Shown: positions 18,670-33,489 of the stretch, one piece after another | How positions within the stretch are numbered: the first letter of the stretch is position 1 | Layout of the letters: the number at the start of each line of letters is the position of its first letter | Virus record (IMG/VR): IMGVR_UViG_3300030061_003724 | Coordinates: 1 to 64,000 of that record | Length of the DNA stretch: 64,000 bases | Reading direction: 5' to 3' (one strand) | From: a virus | The notes under the pieces: generated by a model | What the model was told of the DNA's origin: nothing | Seen by the model: only the letters and a program-made list of their open reading frames with translations | The model's database searches: none | Position numbers and translations under genes: made by a program

Positions 18670-20696
<2,027 letters not shown>

Positions 20697-21093: not shown

Positions 21094-21516
21094 TTATTTA
21101 ATTTTAATTGATTTTGGTTTAGCTTCTTCAGCTAACGGTATAAAAATTTCTAATAGACCATTTGTTAAAGATGCATCAATTAAACCTAAATCAAATTTAG
21201 GAGCAATTTTATATCTTAAATCAAATGATTTTTTAGATAAACCATTATGAATCATTCCTTTATGAAATTCTTCTTTTTCTGGTTTGGTATAACTGATTTT
21301 TAAAATATCCCCTTCAATATCTAAGACTACGTCTTTTTTAGTAAGACCAGTACAAGCTACTTCAAAATGAAGTCCTGCATCGTCAAAGAAAATATTAAGT
21401 GGGTGTGGTTGTTTTGTATCTGAAGCTGGTTGAAATGTGCTGTCAGATTTAAAGTGATTCCTAAAAAGGATGTCGAAAGGACTTATATGCCTTTCAAAGA
21501 TTTCTAATGTACTCAT
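21094..21516 (-). CDS. Small heat-shock protein, Hsp20/alpha-crystallin family
   Basis: 140 aa. An alpha-crystallin domain covers about 42-135: FFDDAGLHFEVACTGLTKKD, VVLDIEGDILKIS, KKSFDLRYKIAP and ASLTNGLLEIFIPLAEE, which contains the G-x-L motif. The tail PKSIKIK supplies the I-x-I/V oligomerisation motif. It is an ATP-independent holdase; Hsp20 genes are known in marine T4-like phages. It lies next to the GroES/GroEL genes, which suggests a chaperone module. Confidence 0.93.
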   Translation of the reverse strand: MSTLEIFERHISPFDILFRNHFKSDSTFQPASDTKQPHPLNIFFDDAGLHFEVACTGLTKKDVVLDIEGDILKISYTKPEKEEFHKGMIHNGLSKKSFDLRYKIAPKFDLGLIDASLTNGLLEIFIPLAEEAKPKSIKIK

Positions 21517-24182: not shown

Positions 24183-25115
24183 TTATATCTCAAAAGATGC
24201 TAATGCATCAATATGTGGATTTAAATCTAAACTCCACTCTAAATCATTAAAAAATCCTTCTAATTTATTTAATAAAATTGAATCAAATACTTTTTGTCTA
24301 TCAGCATAAGTATTTAAAAATTCTAATATTTTATTAGGCATATCATAATCAAAAAATGCTAATGCTTCTATTTTATAAGGATTATCTTTTAAATAAATCC
24401 ATTTAACTTTGTCTGCCATTGTTATTTGATTATGTTTTTTATCTAATTGCCACAATTTTAATAAATCATTATAACGAATAGCTGCCCTAACAGGTGCAGG
24501 AGCACCTTTAAGTATTTCAGTAAACATTTCTCCAGCTCTAGATCTACCTTGATATTTATCTAATTTTTTAACTGATGTAGGATTACCTAACTTAGCTAAT
24601 GGTATAGAACCATCTAATATTTGTTTTTTAAACACTTTAATTTGTTTTAAAACATTAACTTTAGTTTCACCCTTTAATACTTGTTCTAAAATACTGTTAA
24701 AGAAATCCCCTAATATAGGTGGAAAATTAGCTTTCATGAACTCTAAACCTTTAATATCTAAAGATTCTTTTTCAATACCTTCCTGTTTAGTAATCCACTG
24801 TGCATATCTTCTAGTAGCCCTAAAATAAGCAGCTCTGATTACACATTCAGTCTTCATTTCTAATCTATGCTCATTAACATTAAAAGCTTCACGAGCTAAT
24901 CTATCATAATCTTCTGTTATAATATCTTGGTATGCTAGAGCAACTTGTTCTAATTTATCATCTTTTTCTTTATCAGGAAATTCTTCAAAATTAGGATATA
25001 AATGCTTTAATATAGGTTCTGCATTAAAATAATTAGAATCTGTGTCAACATAAGCACAGTAATTCTCATCATCTTTATCACATATCCACCAAGGAGTATC
25101 TTCTATATGTTTCAT
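24183..25115 (-). CDS. B-family DNA polymerase, C-terminal fragment (gp43B)
   Basis: 310 aa. Begins MKHIEDTPWWICDKDDENYC and reaches polymerase motif C, AYVDTDSNYF with D24 and D26, within 30 residues. KTECVIRAAYFRATRRYAQW matches the conserved KKRYA-type block, and the rest is thumb. The end FNDLEWSLDL resembles the T4 gp43 C-terminus. It is the missing second half of the protein encoded at 25751..27448. Both halves must associate to make an active enzyme. Two unrelated genes lie between the halves. Confidence 0.9.
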   Translation of the reverse strand: MKHIEDTPWWICDKDDENYCAYVDTDSNYFNAEPILKHLYPNFEEFPDKEKDDKLEQVALAYQDIITEDYDRLAREAFNVNEHRLEMKTECVIRAAYFRATRRYAQWITKQEGIEKESLDIKGLEFMKANFPPILGDFFNSILEQVLKGETKVNVLKQIKVFKKQILDGSIPLAKLGNPTSVKKLDKYQGRSRAGEMFTEILKGAPAPVRAAIRYNDLLKLWQLDKKHNQITMADKVKWIYLKDNPYKIEALAFFDYDMPNKILEFLNTYADRQKVFDSILLNKLEGFFNDLEWSLDLNPHIDALASFEI

Positions 25116-25480
25116 TTATACTCTTTTATATCTTTAAAATTAGATCCAGTAATAATATTAATATCATTTTTTAACTGGTTTCTAACTTCATTATACTCAA
25201 ATATTAATCTAGATGAAGTAATAAAATCTTTATCTTTAATTTTTTTATTCCTTACTCTATTTTCTAGATCCCACAATATACGATTTACTTTTGATAACTC
25301 CAAAAACAATACCTTAACTTCTTTACCATTTTTTGTAAATAAATCTACAACACCAGGATTTAAAGTTTGAAATTCTTTTTCAACATTAGCTAGATTTTCA
25401 GGATTTTCCATATTCAATTTTTTAATCTCTAAAATTGAAATTCTATCTAATAATTCGCCATTTGAAATCTCTATTTTCAT
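25112..25480 (-). CDS. DUF6165-like protein inserted in split polymerase locus
   Basis: 122 aa, fully helical. MKIEISNGELLDRISILEIK and the later LSKVNRILWDLENRVRNKKI and FEYNEVRNQLKNDINIITGS strongly resemble DUF6165 proteins, which occur near lipopolysaccharide genes in bacteria. Their function is unknown. Here the gene lies between the two parts of the DNA polymerase, overlapping the C-terminal part by 4 nt. A regulatory or accessory role is possible but unproven. Confidence 0.65.
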   Translation of the reverse strand: MKIEISNGELLDRISILEIKKLNMENPENLANVEKEFQTLNPGVVDLFTKNGKEVKVLFLELSKVNRILWDLENRVRNKKIKDKDFITSSRLIFEYNEVRNQLKNDINIITGSNFKDIKEYK

Positions 25481-25481
25481 T

Positions 25482-25754
25482 TTAAAATGTTTTATCTCCT
25501 CCTGGTAATTTAGGTACTGTTACTGGTCTATTTCCTGTTGAATCAATATCATTTTTTGGTTCAACGATTATTCTATAAGGGGTATTATTAATTTTAAAAC
25601 TTCCTCCTTGTTTAAGCATTTTTCTAAAAAATCTCTCTTGTGATTCTGTCCACCCTTCACTAATTACAATCAATTCTTCTTTTGATAATTTTTCATTTGT
25701 TTTACCTATATAAACTTCTACGTTACCTCTTATTGATTGTTTTTTTAGTGTCAT
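25482..25754 (-). CDS. Hypothetical protein in split polymerase locus, 90 aa
   Basis: Starts MTLKKQSIRGNVEVYIGKTN, alpha/beta, with FFRKMLKQGGSFKINNTPYR followed by a flexible end TVPKLPGGDKTF. No endonuclease motif (GIY-YIG, HNH or LAGLIDADG) is visible, so it is not an obvious homing gene. It overlaps the polymerase N-terminal fragment by 4 nt. Function unknown. Confidence 0.6.
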   Translation of the reverse strand: MTLKKQSIRGNVEVYIGKTNEKLSKEELIVISEGWTESQERFFRKMLKQGGSFKINNTPYRIIVEPKNDIDSTGNRPVTVPKLPGGDKTF

Positions 25755-27448
25755 ATTTTTAATTTTAATTCGCCTCTAATTACTTTATTCATATGTCTAT
25801 TAGCACATAAAGCACTTTCTTGTATAATTCTTTGTCCTGATAGTGTAATAGCTTCTGATAAGATTACATTACCATATCTGAAACTACCTAATGCTGTTGC
25901 TCCATATAAACTATTAAGCAAAATTTTCATTGTATATTGCATTAAATAGTTATATTCACCTTTTTCTGTGTCTCCAGCTTTATAAGCTGATTTCATACGT
26001 CCCTTATAAATAACACGTTCTTCAAACCATTTTTTAAGAATTGTAGATAATACTGATTCTCTATCTGTCTCAAAAAATACCCCATTAGCTGATATTGCTA
26101 AGTTGTTTTCTTCAATCATTTGAATTAGTTTTTTTACAGGTACATATGCTTGTCTACGATGTTTATTTTCTACTAATAATTCTTCTTCAGGGTCACGTTC
26201 TTTTAAATCGTTAAGTGCCAATCTATTATTACGGTCATCTGCATCTATGATACGTCCCTTGAGTGTTTCTTTACCTATGTTTATACTCATTATAATTGAT
26301 GGATACAGCGATGTTAAATCTTCATCAAACATATACTTGTATAATCCTGCTTTAGGGCAAAATAAATAACCACCAGCATAATTCTTTTTATGAATTGGAT
26401 TTTCATCTCTTCTAGGTGGAATAATTCCTTGAGATAATAGATAAGCTGAAATGGCACCATCTTGTGATACCGTATTAGCATAAACTTCACTATAATTATG
26501 TTTTCCTTTATGAGATAAGTTTTTAGTTAAAGCAATATACTGTAACTTTTCATCTAATAATTTTAATATTTCAACATCACGGAAGTTATACTGAATAAAT
26601 TTCTGAATATCAGTTTCAAATAATTGATCTAGGTTTCCTTCATAATCAACTTTACCTACTTTAGCATATTTTTCTCCAATAGCATCTAATTTCCAGCTTG
26701 GTTCATCTTTCCAACTATACTTTTTATGTAAACGCATATAATCTAAAGATTCAACTCCAATAATTTCTACAAATTGATTACGCTTAAACCAATATTGATT
26801 ACCTTTTCTACAATTTACTTTACCAATTGGGGATAAATGTCTAGCAAAATCTTCACCTATTGTATTACACATTCTATAGTACAAATAAGGAATATCAAAG
26901 AAATCACTATTATAACCTATTAAAATATCTGGGTCTATGTCTCTAATAAACTCAATAAATTTACCTAGTAATTCATTTTCAGTTCTACAAGGTATAATTT
27001 CTTTATTTTTAGCTTTAGTATGTTTTAATTGATTCTTTTTATCAAGAATTAAAATATGCCAAGTATCAGGTGTTTTATCCCACCAAGCAATTGAAGTAAT
27101 AGGCATAGGAGCACTTTCAATATAATCTTCAGTTAATGCACCTCCTATTTCACACTCAATATCAAAAAATACTTCTCTATGACCAGTAGAAGGTGTATCA
27201 TCAGTACCATATCTTTCAATTAAATATTTTTGATATGGCTTCATATCATGGAAATGAATGTTTGAAGTATTTTTATCCCATTTATAAGTTTTAGTTAGTT
27301 TTTCACCATTAATGCCTTTAAGGTTACCATTTGAATCTTCAACATAAGCTGGGTTCCACCATTCTATTTCGTCATAGCCTGCTTCGTCCCAAAGATGTAT
27401 TTTGAATTTATTTTTACCTAAATTTGTTGCGTAGCATTTTTTATACAT
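25751..27448 (-). CDS. B-family DNA polymerase, N-terminal fragment (gp43A)
   Basis: 565 aa. Proofreading motifs are intact: Exo I FFDIECE (D96, E98), Exo II GYNSDFFDIPYL (N180, D185) and Exo III YNFRD (Y287, D291). Polymerase motif A DEDLTSLYPSII (D377) and motif B KILLNSLYG (K508, N512, Y515, G516) follow. The chain then stops shortly after GQRIIQESALCANR, before motif C, which is in the gene at 24183..25115. Together 875 residues, close to T4 gp43 (898). Aeromonas T4-like phages also have split gp43, but here two non-homing genes separate the pieces. Confidence 0.93.
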   Translation of the reverse strand: MYKKCYATNLGKNKFKIHLWDEAGYDEIEWWNPAYVEDSNGNLKGINGEKLTKTYKWDKNTSNIHFHDMKPYQKYLIERYGTDDTPSTGHREVFFDIECEIGGALTEDYIESAPMPITSIAWWDKTPDTWHILILDKKNQLKHTKAKNKEIIPCRTENELLGKFIEFIRDIDPDILIGYNSDFFDIPYLYYRMCNTIGEDFARHLSPIGKVNCRKGNQYWFKRNQFVEIIGVESLDYMRLHKKYSWKDEPSWKLDAIGEKYAKVGKVDYEGNLDQLFETDIQKFIQYNFRDVEILKLLDEKLQYIALTKNLSHKGKHNYSEVYANTVSQDGAISAYLLSQGIIPPRRDENPIHKKNYAGGYLFCPKAGLYKYMFDEDLTSLYPSIIMSINIGKETLKGRIIDADDRNNRLALNDLKERDPEEELLVENKHRRQAYVPVKKLIQMIEENNLAISANGVFFETDRESVLSTILKKWFEERVIYKGRMKSAYKAGDTEKGEYNYLMQYTMKILLNSLYGATALGSFRYGNVILSEAITLSGQRIIQESALCANRHMNKVIRGELKLKI

Positions 27449-28159: not shown

Positions 28160-28545
28160 TTTAGATAATCTTGTATTGTTATTGAATCTTCTCTTTCCCA
28201 TGGATATACTATCCATTGATCACTTACTTCCTTAGCATAAAAATTATGTTGAAATTTAGAAGTAGGTTTATGATGTAAAGTAGCCCAGTATACACCTGGT
28301 GCTTTACTCAATGTCTCTCCTGTATCATTAATATCATCTACTACTAAAGTATTTTTACCTGGGTGTAATACAAAAGGTAAATCAATTTCATGTGAAATTA
28401 ATACTGCTGGGATTAAACCTCCTCTCGGTAATCCCATTACTGAATCTATATTTGGATAATCTGTTAGAATTTTTTTACATAATATGTTTACACATTCATG
28501 TATTTCAGACCATTCAAGGTATACTTTAGATATTGTGTCCGCCAT
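28156..28545 (-). CDS. Phosphoribosyltransferase (purine-type, Gpt-like)
   Basis: 129 aa. VMGLPRGGLIPAVLISHEI and the PRPP-binding motif TLVVDDINDTGETL (D-D-x-x-x-T-G-x-T/S) are diagnostic of type I phosphoribosyltransferases. The C-terminal KEVSDQWIVYPWEREDSI is typical of xanthine-guanine phosphoribosyltransferase-like proteins. It would join a purine base, or a base analogue, to PRPP. Its position in front of folE and the que genes hints at a 7-deazapurine or guanine salvage role; that is inference. Confidence 0.82.
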   Translation of the reverse strand: MADTISKVYLEWSEIHECVNILCKKILTDYPNIDSVMGLPRGGLIPAVLISHEIDLPFVLHPGKNTLVVDDINDTGETLSKAPGVYWATLHHKPTSKFQHNFYAKEVSDQWIVYPWEREDSITIQDYLK

Positions 28546-29218
28546 TATTTATTTTTAAACTATCAAAGAATTCTTTTCTAGCTAGGTTATCATTTTCTCT
28601 AAATACTCCTGTTGCTTTAGTTGTAACCATAGCAGCACCTTGATGTTTAACACCTCTACAACTTACACAATTATGTGTTCCTACTACTGTAACAATTACA
28701 CCTTTATTATTTTCACAAATTTTATTTACAGCATTATGGATTGCTGATGTTAGTTGTTCTTGAATTGCTCCTCTTCTTCCAAACAATTCTACTATTCTAT
28801 TTAACTTAGATAATCCAATTACTCTACCATTATCTCCAACAACATATCCAATATGAACTACACCTCCAATTGTTTGATGGTGATGTGAACACATTGAAGT
28901 TAACGGTATATTTCGTTCTATAACAATGCCATCATAACCATCTGATGGGAATGATGTGATTGGAGACATCTGTGTGTATCTACCAGCCCACAAATCATTT
29001 ACATATGCTTTAGCTACTCTCATAGGAGTATCAGCTGAGTTGGGATCATTCTGCCAATCACATTTTAATGCCTCTAAAAATCGGGCATATGCTTTAGCAG
29101 CTTTGTTTATCATTTTTTGTTTTTCTTTATCGTTTAGAGGAAATCCAGGTGCAACTCCATTTGCGAATCCTTCTTGTACTACCTCTAAGTCGTTGTGATT
29201 TTTTCTACGATTGCTCAT
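28526..29218 (-). CDS. folE: GTP cyclohydrolase I
   Basis: 230 aa. Zinc and catalytic residues are visible: SMCSHHHQTIGG (C110, H112, H113) and VGTHNCVSCRG (C184, C187), plus IGLSKLNRIVELFGRR. It converts GTP to dihydroneopterin triphosphate, the first step toward 7-deazaguanine and folate. With QueD, QueE and QueC nearby, the former use is likely. It overlaps the phosphoribosyltransferase gene by 20 nt. Confidence 0.93.
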   Translation of the reverse strand: MSNRRKNHNDLEVVQEGFANGVAPGFPLNDKEKQKMINKAAKAYARFLEALKCDWQNDPNSADTPMRVAKAYVNDLWAGRYTQMSPITSFPSDGYDGIVIERNIPLTSMCSHHHQTIGGVVHIGYVVGDNGRVIGLSKLNRIVELFGRRGAIQEQLTSAIHNAVNKICENNKGVIVTVVGTHNCVSCRGVKHQGAAMVTTKATGVFRENDNLARKEFFDSLKINNGGHNI

Positions 29219-29342
29219 TTATATAACTTTCTAATTTATCTATTAATACTAGTACTTCATCTGGTTCCATTGTAATGGCACAACAAACGTGTACATTTTC
29301 CTTTATGTCTTCTAATATACGAAGGGCTTCTTGCTTATCCAC
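29205..29342 (-). CDS. Small helical protein with GTG start, 45 aa
   Basis: GTG at 29342..29340 shares its G with the TAG stop of queE; TAG stop at 29207..29205 overlaps folE by 14 nt. The product VDKQEALRILEDIKENVHVC continues into an acidic helix ending LIDKLESYINEQS. It exactly fills the gap between queE and folE, so it is likely a real coupled gene. Two cysteines (C20, C21). Function unknown. Confidence 0.5.
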   Translation of the reverse strand: MDKQEALRILEDIKENVHVCCAITMEPDEVLVLIDKLESYINEQS

Positions 29343-30127
29343 TATACTTCTCGTTTATCTTCAAAAGCAATAATATGTGGTCTCCAAGTCATTCTATAAC
29401 CATTATCTCTAACCCAATCAAATAATACTGGGTAGGACTTAAATAGTGCTTCTCTAGAATCACCTGCAGGCATAAACCATACTTTTTCAGGTTTAACTTC
29501 TAACTGAGCTATACAATCCATAATTTCAGCTAGTGCTCCTTTATCCTTACCATCCCAAACTGGTTTGATATGAAAATCCGAATGGTACGCTATTGATTGT
29601 TTTATAGCTGCATAATTAAGTCTTAATTTATTATGTTGTTTTACCATTTTTTCGTCTGTAACTTTTCCTTGAGGAGTAAGAGTACCAACAACGGGGACGC
29701 TATTACTAAACTTAGGAGAAATTGACAGAAGATTAATAGGATAATCAGTAGGAAGGAAATGTGATCCTTCAGTTTCCATAGTAATGAATATATTGTTTTC
29801 ATGTGCAAAGTGGGTTAACTCGTTAACCAAAGCAGCATGCATTGAAGGAGAACCTCCAGTCAACATCATTTCCTTTATATGAGGATTTTTCTCATACATG
29901 GCAATGATATCTTTAAAATTAAAGTGACCTTTTTCTGGATGGATACTAGTGTACCAAGAATCACACCATCCACCTTCACCGAAATAACATCTGTGGGTGC
30001 ATCCTGTTGTTCTAATTACTACTGTTGGGTATCCTGCTCTTGATCCTTCTGATTGTACTGCAGTGTAGATTTCTACAATTGGGAGGTTTTTATCGTAATC
30101 CTCAATACGTTTCAGTTGCTTGTGCAT
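29342..30127 (-). CDS. queE: 7-carboxy-7-deazaguanine synthase, QueE-like
   Basis: 261 aa radical SAM enzyme. PIVEIYTAVQSEGSRAGYPT is the QueE opening (E-x-F-x-S-x-Q-G-E-G in QueE), followed by TTGCTHRCYFGEGGWCDSWY with C43, C47 and C55. This is CX3CX7C rather than CX3CX2C. MMLTGGSPSMH and the C-terminal WFMPAGDSREA agree. It turns carboxy-tetrahydropterin from QueD into CDG, the precursor of preQ0. It forms part of the que cluster. Confidence 0.88.
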   Translation of the reverse strand: MHKQLKRIEDYDKNLPIVEIYTAVQSEGSRAGYPTVVIRTTGCTHRCYFGEGGWCDSWYTSIHPEKGHFNFKDIIAMYEKNPHIKEMMLTGGSPSMHAALVNELTHFAHENNIFITMETEGSHFLPTDYPINLLSISPKFSNSVPVVGTLTPQGKVTDEKMVKQHNKLRLNYAAIKQSIAYHSDFHIKPVWDGKDKGALAEIMDCIAQLEVKPEKVWFMPAGDSREALFKSYPVLFDWVRDNGYRMTWRPHIIAFEDKREV

Positions 30128-30170
30128 ATTGTTAATTTTTTATAGTGGTTTTTCATTCACTGTTGTAACT

Positions 30171-30635
30171 TTATTCGCTGTAATAAGCAGCATTTTTTCC
30201 ATGTTCTGCAAACTTAACTTTGACAACTCTTACTCTATTGTCTGTTTCAGTTTTAACAAAATCATTTAATTTGTGATAAATATATTCAGCAAATTTCTCT
30301 GCGCCAGTAGCTGGGATAACCCTTACTTGAGCTACTCCTGCTGTATCCATTTGTTTAAATGCTTCTAATTCTGGGTCATCTTCTGCCACAACTAAAGTGT
30401 GGTCAAACATATAATCCATCCATGCTTTAGGAGACATACCATCAATTTGAGTTTTAGCTCTTTTCATTCCACCAAAATCCCAAACCCAATTTCTATGATC
30501 TAAATCTCCTTCAAAGTATACTTTAAAAGAAACTCCATAACCATGAACAAATCTACAGTGTGTTGTTGTTGCTTTCCATTGACGAAACACTGTACTAAAA
30601 CCGTCAAATACTTTACTTGATTGAAACTTACCCAT
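30171..30635 (-). CDS. queD: 6-carboxy-tetrahydropterin synthase, QueD-like
   Basis: 154 aa. STVFRQWKATTTHCRFVHGY contains the cysteine and histidines of the PTPS/QueD site in the phage-type arrangement, and VWDFGGMKRAK, FDHTLVVAEDDPE and ATGAEKFAEYIYHKL follow the family order (D-F...DH...E-x2). It makes carboxy-tetrahydropterin from dihydroneopterin triphosphate. The gap to queE is 43 nt. It overlaps the thioredoxin gene by 8 nt. Confidence 0.87.
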   Translation of the reverse strand: MGKFQSSKVFDGFSTVFRQWKATTTHCRFVHGYGVSFKVYFEGDLDHRNWVWDFGGMKRAKTQIDGMSPKAWMDYMFDHTLVVAEDDPELEAFKQMDTAGVAQVRVIPATGAEKFAEYIYHKLNDFVKTETDNRVRVVKVKFAEHGKNAAYYSE

Positions 30636-32386: not shown

Positions 32387-32528
32387 TTGCCCAGGCAGGA
32401 CTCGAACCTGCGACCTCTTTGACCTCTTTGCTTTTCACGATCGATTGTATTACAAGTTTCCCTTCACGTTAAAGTTCAACTTCGCGCCGAGTTAAGCCAA
32501 AGCGAGCTACCTACTGCTCTACTGGGTA
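32387..32528 (-). tRNA. tRNA-like gene with about 60-nt insertion in the anticodon loop
   Basis: 142 nt on the minus strand. It has acceptor strands TACCCAG and CTGGGCA (one A-C mismatch), a D arm GAGC-AGTAGGTA-GCTC, an anticodon stem CTTTG/CAAAG and a perfect T arm GCAGG-TTCGAGT-CCTGC. The anticodon loop is 67 nt instead of 7. The variable region holds a 9-nt tandem repeat AAAGAGGTC. No CCA is encoded. No group I intron core can fit in 60 nt, so the insert is unexplained. It may be a pseudogene or an RNA with another role. The anticodon is not assigned. Confidence 0.55.
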
Positions 32529-32536
32529 TATTTTTG

Positions 32537-32609
32537 TTGTCCCGCCAGGTTTCGAACCTGGACTCTTCTGAACCAAAATCAGACGTGTTACCAGTTACAC
32601 CACAGGACA
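32537..32609 (-). tRNA. tRNA-Gln (anticodon TTG)
   Basis: 73 nt on the minus strand. Acceptor TGTCCTG/CGGGACA, D arm, anticodon stem TCTGA/TCAGA with loop TT-TTG-GT, T arm CCAGG-TTCGAAA-CCTGG, discriminator A, no encoded CCA. All arms pair. It reads CAA and CAG (by wobble) codons. Confidence 0.93.
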
Positions 32610-32614
32610 TTTAG

Positions 32615-32688
32615 TGGAGGATATCGGAGTCGAACCGATGACCTCTTGAATGCAAATCAAGTGCTCTAGCCAGCTGAGCTAATCCCCC
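32615..32688 (-). tRNA. tRNA-Ala (anticodon TGC)
   Basis: 74 nt on the minus strand. Acceptor GGGGGAT/ATCCTCC with one G-U, D arm GCTC-AGCTGGCTA-GAGC, anticodon stem CTTGA/TCAAG with loop TT-TGC-AT, T arm ATCGG-TTCGACT-CCGAT, discriminator A, no encoded CCA. GGGGGATTAGCTCAGC is the usual tRNA-Ala start. It lies 6 nt from queC. Confidence 0.94.
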
Positions 32689-32694
32689 TACCTT

Positions 32695-33489
32695 TTAAGC
32701 TGCGTATTCAGCAAGCAATTTCTCTACGTGAGATTTTGCTACTTCGTAATCAACTTCTCCAGTTTCATCCTCATACTGTACAGGATCTTTTCTCCCCAGA
32801 GCAATAAAAGCCTCAATCCTCTCAACACTAGAAGCAGACTTATAATCACTATTTCCTGAAGGATATGGTTTATAAGAAGTATTTGTTCTCTTATAAACTT
32901 CATCAAATTCAATACCCAACGTATCAACCAAACTCTCTCCATCCTTTAAAATTCCTAATTTATCTGTGTCAATATAAGGTATAAAAAATCCTACTTTATC
33001 AGCATCCCAATTACCAATTTTGAAAGCTTCATAATCAGCATCTCTAAATTCTTGTCTACAATCAGGATAGATAGCATGATCACCAGCATGGATACCTAAA
33101 GCAATATCACATTCATCTCCTGTTTTTTTAGATACAGATAATGCTACTGCTTGAGTTAATGAAGAGAAAATTTTATTTCTATTAGGTACAACTGTTGCTA
33201 CCATATTTTCTTCTTCATAATGACCTTCTGGTACATCTTCTCCACCTTCTACAAGGTTAGAATCTAGTAGGTTTACTAAACCATCTAATTTAATTACTTG
33301 ATAAGTAACATTCTGACCATTAGCATTTAAATAATCTACTAATGATTGTGCTCTTTCAAGTTCCACTCTATGCTTCTGACCGTAATCAAAAGATAAAGCT
33401 GTTACATTGTCATACTCAGATAAACATCTAAGTAGTAAAGTTGAGGAGTCCATCCCTCCAGATAAGGACACTACGACATTTTTTGCCAT
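32695..33489 (-). CDS. queC: QueC-like PP-loop enzyme lacking the zinc cysteines
   Basis: 264 aa. The PP-loop SGGMDSS (10-16), LSFDYGQKH and the VVPNRNKIF and GDHAIYPDCRQEF motifs identify 7-cyano-7-deazaguanine synthase. QueC normally ends with SCY...CGxCxxCxER, four zinc cysteines. Here that part reads TSYKPYPSGNSDYKSASSVER (about residues 204-224, shown in pieces), so all four positions are Ser, Asp or other non-Cys residues. The activity (CDG to preQ0 via the amide) may be changed or metal independent. It overlaps the next gene by 19 nt. Confidence 0.85.
   Translation of the reverse strand: MAKNVVVSLSGGMDSSTLLLRCLSEYDNVTALSFDYGQKHRVELERAQSLVDYLNANGQNVTYQVIKLDGLVNLLDSNLVEGGEDVPEGHYEEENMVATVVPNRNKIFSSLTQAVALSVSKKTGDECDIALGIHAGDHAIYPDCRQEFRDADYEAFKIGNWDADKVGFFIPYIDTDKLGILKDGESLVDTLGIEFDEVYKRTNTSYKPYPSGNSDYKSASSVERIEAFIALGRKDPVQYEDETGEVDYEVAKSHVEKLLAEYAA

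Follow-up and report, generated by a model that had tools for sequence, protein, structure and literature searches.

A predicted family of non-decoding phage RNAs with an initiator-type tRNA body and exchangeable domains on the anticodon arm

What is a tRNA-like gene with a large insertion in its anticodon region for in a phage genome? In this study, we analyzed a 64,000-nt stretch of an uncultured virus (the window), in which an initial annotation had placed such a gene at 32387-32528. The coordinates proved exact, and the gene, a tRNA-like body of 142 nt (position 73 included), lies on the (-) strand. It starts 7 nt past a tRNA-Gln gene, a tRNA-Ala gene also precedes it, all three share the (-) strand, and a 2OG-Fe(II) oxygenase gene comes after. 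Standard tools hardly register the element. The Rfam tRNA model rejects it, scoring only the T arm, at 14.5 bits and below the gathering score, and ARAGORN calls it only with introns allowed, as 'tRNA-Leu(taa) i(37,67)'. The family described below is absent from Rfam 15. Thus, annotation overlooks the element or takes it at most for an intron-bearing leucine tRNA. Low-threshold Rfam searches for ribozymes, introns and riboswitches, run on the window and on members of the three structural classes A, B and C, returned only tRNA and sub-threshold noise (YrlA, the T arm of tmRNA, tRNA-Sec and antisense RNA). Shuffled sequence folds with as favorable an energy as the window element (z -0.21). A single copy alone therefore makes a weak case, and the proof has to come from the comparison of relatives. 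The parts of the element and its neighbors are as follows.

32387-32528 (-), whole element, 142 nt with position 73 counted: tRNA-like RNA whose anticodon arm is grafted; 34 distinct complete sequences and L150
32522-32528 (-), acceptor 5' strand TACCCAG, partner 32388-32394, A.C mismatch at 2:71; 1:72 or 2:71 unpaired in 33/34 members
32504-32519 (-), D arm GAGC-AGTAGGTA-GCTC, with A11:U24 like initiator tRNA
32496-32502 (-), extended anticodon stem, 5' strand CTTTGGC, 7 bp; changes on both sides in 5/7 pairs
32492-32495 (-), TTAA bulge where the anticodon would lie; TTAA in 31/34, TAAA in 2, TTATAA in 1
32489-32491 (-), P2 helix, 5' strand CTC, partner GAG at 32424-32426; one pair shows C-G, U-A, A-U and G-C
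32427-32488 (-), apical domain, class A-long
32454-32482 (-), extra apical hairpin of class A-long, AAGU/ACUU and CUU/AAG with an ACGU loop; not in class A-short
32430-32443 (-), apical motif CGATCGTGAAAAGC; CGATCG invariant in 30/30 class A members
32424-32426 (-), P2 helix, 3' strand GAG
32417-32423 (-), extended anticodon stem, 3' strand GTCAAAG
32412-32416 (-), variable region AGGTC, ordinary, 5 nt
32395-32411 (-), T arm GCAGG-TTCGAGT-CCTGC
32388-32394 (-), acceptor 3' strand CTGGGCA
32536-32609 (-), neighboring ordinary tRNA-Gln(TTG)
32614-32688 (-), neighboring ordinary tRNA-Ala(TGC)

In order, the anticodon arm consists of a 7-bp stem, a 4-nt bulge on its 5' side, a further helix and an apical domain. 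The further helix measures 3 bp in class A and 7 bp in class B, and the class A arm also has a 3x3 internal loop. The large insertion reported initially is thus real. It had been described as an open loop of 67 nt on a 5-bp anticodon stem, but the stem extends over seven covarying pairs and leads into the UUAA bulge, the 3-bp helix and the apical domain. The supposed 9-nt tandem duplication in the variable region turned out to be a coincidence that is not conserved (relatives read, e.g., AAAAGGGGTAGAGAGGTC); its second copy is the 3' anticodon strand GTCAAAG, so that the variable region is an ordinary one. The inverted repeats AAGTT-G-AACTT and TTGTA-AT-ACAA do occur in the window but are not conserved as such, the conserved apical pairs being AAGU/ACUU and CUU/AAG instead. 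The one acceptor mismatch was located at 2:71. Across the family, acceptor pairing is robust from 3:70 to 7:66, and the D and T arms are normal. U8, A14, G15, G18G19, A21, C48 and TTCGAGT are invariant among the 34 elements, and the determinants of the tRNA elbow (U8-A14, G15-C48, and G18/G19 with the T-loop TTCGA) are present in 34/34. Some of the scans prescribed part of the D- and T-loop letters, whereas two apical-motif scans required neither loop.

The initial annotation had proposed a search for related loci, and this search uncovered a family: 34 distinct complete class A and B sequences and the divergent class C sequence L150, all from uncultured viral contigs. The entry point was the neighboring QueC gene, whose relatives were scanned in 2.9 million viral contigs and several of whose loci carry the element; pattern scans, on the apical motif and on the tRNA frame, then extended the set. 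Members recovered by the scans without a D- or T-loop requirement still sit in a tRNA body, and the remaining matches were unrelated sequence. The class B pattern matches only four sequences in the viral contigs. Searches of whole records never gave more than one element per record (a record of 176 kb, for instance, has one). Among 50,697 phage records, none yielded a match that covers the element, and the isolated phages immuto and phiST possess related Que genes without it. The genomes of 84,980 bacterial and archaeal species gave zero matches in two strict scans for the apical motif; these used the exact class A motif, so that divergent or class B and C bacterial copies would be missed. The class A covariance model R1 works, yet it gives ordinary tRNAs 22-66 bits, and R1 E-values are therefore no proof of membership. 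Judged from these sequences, the element is a conserved RNA family in many uncultured marine-type phages; the members come from metagenomic contigs, relatives among them are not independent, and class B comprises 4 sequences and class C 1.

Comparison of 21 class A relatives supports the structure. Standard pairs make up 95.8% of paired cells, compared with 79.1% after shuffling, and covariation scores 0.467, whereas shuffled alignments reach 0.175 and slid ones at most 0.17. The slid controls keep the relatedness of the sequences and score far lower; the shuffles leave it in as well. For the extended anticodon arm alone, 100% of cells are paired, with a covariation of 0.599 (0.279 shuffled). 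The absence of compensatory changes in homologues had been named beforehand as the sign of a pseudogene; 22 of the 35 pairs change on both sides. In these alignments, every stem co-varies, that is the acceptor, D, T and anticodon stems including the extended arm.

The apical domains fall into distinct classes. Class A-short (n = 12) has the form GC-AUAAUA-...-CGAUCGURAAAAGC, and class A-long (n = 18) has a further hairpin of about 30 nt in this domain. Class B (n = 4) is unrelated to class A in sequence, and class C, represented by L150, differs again from both. A search that left the six letters of CGAUCG free found no class A member with another hexamer. The class B element L139 and the class A element L135 are identical at 66/69 body positions and share a gene neighborhood. 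As read from such pairs, unrelated apical domains are exchanged between near-identical tRNA bodies. The strong constraint on CGAUCGURAAAAGC in class A suggests that the apical motif has a specific partner, or an activity that goes beyond a generic tRNA decoy. In the class B loop (L014, L137, L138 and L139), AUGCAU becomes GUGCAC in L137 and the palindrome is kept, as in kissing-loop dimerization sites. The palindromes CGAUCG in class A and AUGCAU/GUGCAC in class B may be taken as a lead toward kissing dimers.

The tRNA body points to a particular ancestor. Related phages carry initiator-type tRNA-Met at the same QueC locus. Over the D arm, variable region and T arm, the initiator-type tRNA-Met of L004 and an element are identical at 41/41 nt, and the mean identity of the elements to initiator-type tRNA-Met is 0.89, against at most 0.73 to any other tRNA. 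The L004 tRNA-Met has a CAU anticodon, a GGG:CCC stem, A11:U24 and an unpaired 1:72, and in E. coli it best matches the 4-copy tRNA-Met, which shares these features (CGCGGGG...GGGCTCATAACCC). Four phage tRNA-Met(CAT) genes of the initiator type, each with unpaired 1:72 and A11:U24, were located.

L004, 5157-5230, phage tRNA-Met(CAT)
L007, 5267-5340, phage tRNA-Met(CAT)
L009, 4979-5052, phage tRNA-Met(CAT)
L138, 653-726, phage tRNA-Met(CAT)

The GGG:CCC anticodon stem is seen in the genes of L004, L007 and L009. Three of the four genes occupy the position that the element holds in related phages; in L138 tRNA-Met and element lie 1 nt apart. Among 80 QueC loci, the element was present in 11, an initiator-type tRNA-Met in 3 and both in none. 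A11:U24 is present in 26/34 elements, the window copy included, and the other eight have C-G (5) or U-A (3). Position 1:72 is unpaired in 24/34 and 2:71 is mismatched instead in 9 more, among them the window copy; an acceptor top unpaired at one of these positions occurs in only 5/52 ordinary tRNAs from the same loci (Fisher p = 2e-17, relatedness uncorrected), and four of the five are tRNA-Met. In L150, the D arm is elongator-like and the acceptor top is paired. The body is thus by far closest to initiator-type tRNA-Met, from which we infer that the element was derived from initiator tRNA(fMet). The alignment of CUUAAC with CUCAUAAC suggests that the bulge may be the remnant of an anticodon loop that lost C34 and A35. 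The elements differ from initiator tRNA(fMet) in that they lack CAU, the 7-nt loop and the GGG:CCC stem (CTTTGGC/GTCAAAG in the window), bear a structured apical domain and may have their mismatch at 2:71. Elongator-type tRNAs, in contrast to 33/34 elements, have a fully paired acceptor.

As far as its sequence tells, the element cannot decode: CAU is found in 0/34 members, and since a long structure replaces the anticodon loop, codons cannot be read. A decoding tRNA has a 7-nt anticodon loop with U33, whereas the elements have the 7-bp stem and, in 31/34, the UUAA bulge. In initiator tRNA, the unpaired acceptor top keeps EF-Tu away, and MetRS requires CAU. With a weak acceptor top and without CAU, the RNA should thus stay uncharged. 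We give a probability of about 0.5 to the reading of the element as a non-decoding phage RNA that descends from initiator tRNA, works in trans and carries a swappable arm on a stable tRNA scaffold; the phage would probably use it as a tRNA-shaped decoy or scaffold. It would be co-expressed with the phage tRNAs, or else driven by a promoter of its own, and mature into a stable tRNA-shaped RNA. The weak acceptor top would exclude EF-Tu, the missing CAU would prevent charging by MetRS, and the natural tRNA scaffold would offer the apical arm and the bulge in trans to a partner. In the most specific version, the RNA would be a decoy titrating a host factor that acts on initiator tRNA, e.g., an anticodon-loop nuclease of the VapC kind. 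VapC cuts tRNA-fMet within the anticodon stem-loop (PMC5408214, PMC7180214), anticodon-loop mutations in phage tRNAs were proposed to evade such nucleases (PMC10264068), and competitive inhibition of an anticodon nuclease was suggested for a tRNA-like Y RNA domain (PMC7790460). An RNA decoy had already been among the suggestions of the initial annotation. It is tempting to speculate, and tentative, that the element is a counter-defense RNA, an initiator-tRNA decoy that binds a host nuclease or factor without offering a cleavable anticodon loop, and whose apical domains, possibly forming kissing-loop dimers, diversify in an arms race. Among the proteins scanned, no defense gene, Ro60/Rsr or splicing partner was found.

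Other explanations have to be weighed against this trans-acting, initiator-derived decoy or scaffold. Possibly, though we think it unlikely, the element is a regulatory RNA that acts in trans as an antisense or protein-sequestering RNA, is unrelated to tRNA-targeting defense and uses the tRNA body for maturation and stability only. The invariant class A loop motif, the palindromes of classes A and B with their suggestion of loop-loop dimers and the putative own promoter in some phages all fit, and engineered tRNA scaffolds serve recombinant RNA expression in cells (e.g., PMC3753655). Such a role does not by itself explain why the acceptor top is weak in the manner of initiator tRNA while the other stems are fully paired, nor why unrelated apical modules replace each other. 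A Y-RNA-like function, in which the tRNA-like module docks on tRNA-binding enzymes and the long arm binds a ring protein of the Ro60/Rsr type, is improbable. YrlA (RF02553) follows a similar logic, being a tRNA mimic with tRNA-like D and T arms and a long structured arm where the anticodon arm would be, and it gives weak matches to the elements; however, these score only 18.6, 18.2 and 25.2 bits where the cut-off is 69, two of them run across adjacent tRNA genes, YrlA is circularly permuted and pairs with Rsr/Ro60 whereas the element topology is not permuted, and a TROVE/Ro60 domain was found in 0/36 window proteins scanned with Pfam. It is very unlikely that the element acts in cis as a leader of the downstream gene: a start codon on the same strand often follows 9-20 nt downstream of it, but the downstream genes are entirely different between phages, and ordinary tRNA genes are packed alike.

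Further proposals were considered as well. A functional tRNA from which a mini-intron is spliced by machinery of unknown kind, another suggestion of the initial annotation, would account for the place of the insert at the anticodon loop and for the intron modeled by ARAGORN. We consider it highly improbable. No CAU is kept and excision would not restore one; the flanks of the insert pair as the covarying 7-bp helix and not as a 7-nt loop; in the register used, the junction leaves C33 instead of U33 in nearly all members, with anticodons such as UUA; and 33/34 members lack a fully paired acceptor top. The unrelated inserts of 36-67 nt are, as had been stated at the outset, too small for a group I intron, which has a P3-P8 core and about 200 nt or more, and Rfam finds no intron. 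An archaeal-type tRNA intron has a bulge-helix-bulge of 3 nt, 4 bp and 3 nt, a geometry that differs from the 4-nt bulge, the helix of 3 bp (7 in class B) and the 3x3 loop of class A. A suppressor tRNA with a UUA anticodon after excision was rejected because of C33 and the UAAA and UUAUAA variants, and for a mobile intron no terminal repeats were noticed and the modules are unrelated in sequence. A twister ribozyme, which the stem-UAA-helix arrangement resembles, was rejected for lack of complementary pseudoknot strands and of an Rfam match. The acceptor mismatch, the missing anticodon and the rejection of the window copy by the Rfam tRNA model might also describe a decaying tRNA pseudogene, but this reading, likewise raised in the initial annotation, is refuted: the stems co-vary across the family, the class A motif is invariant and the tertiary bases are conserved.

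Non-decoding tRNA mimics are already known as a kind. A natural initiator-tRNA body with swappable structured domains on the anticodon arm was not found described in the open-licence literature searched. tmRNA likewise holds a tRNA-like acceptor and T arm inside a larger RNA, but it has a tag ORF and no canonical D stem, and the only match seen is one of 18 nt in the T arm. The nuclease-evading phage tRNAs (PMC10264068) are also phage-encoded, altered in the anticodon region and of a tRNA class targeted by host nucleases; unlike the element, they still decode. The stable RNAs RNAC and RNAD of phage T4 are small RNAs of a phage tRNA region as well, with unknown role (PMC3014915), and we do not claim homology. 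Engineered tRNA scaffolds, with a foreign RNA in the anticodon arm, have the same architecture, but they are man-made, whereas the element is natural and conserved. The family is a source of natural tRNA scaffolds. It also allows the notion of a contest over tRNA between phage and host to be tested concretely, in which a phage RNA may absorb a tRNA-directed attack of the host rather than replace lost tRNA.

The element occurs in several unrelated gene neighborhoods, nearly always on the strand of its neighbors. In five phages it stands alone, and a promoter-like TGTGG...TTCGTATATT precedes its 5' end by about 10 nt; a similar sequence recurs ahead of other genes of these phages. The unrelated neighborhoods and the putative own promoter support an independent RNA gene. 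In L082, L097, L119, L135 and L139, TTTGG-N(about 17)-TTCGTATATT is repeated upstream of several genes, reminiscent of the -33/-7 promoters of Bacteroidota. The host is probably a member of the Bacteroidota, to judge from this promoter style and from DNA similarity to phages of Flavobacterium and Cellulophaga. The window also encodes deazaguanine pathway proteins (GTP cyclohydrolase-like, QueE-like, QueD and QueC; 28526-30635 and 32695-33489), which suggests 7-deazaguanine DNA modification or nucleotide synthesis. Genes for a phage GroEL and for a small heat shock protein of the Hsp20 type lie at 18687-20348 and 21094-21516. The family B DNA polymerase gene (24183-27448) is split in two: 25751-27448 encodes the exonuclease and the N-terminal polymerase part, 24183-25115 weakly matches a divergent C-terminal part, and a DUF6165/DUF4254-like ORF (25112-25480) separates them.
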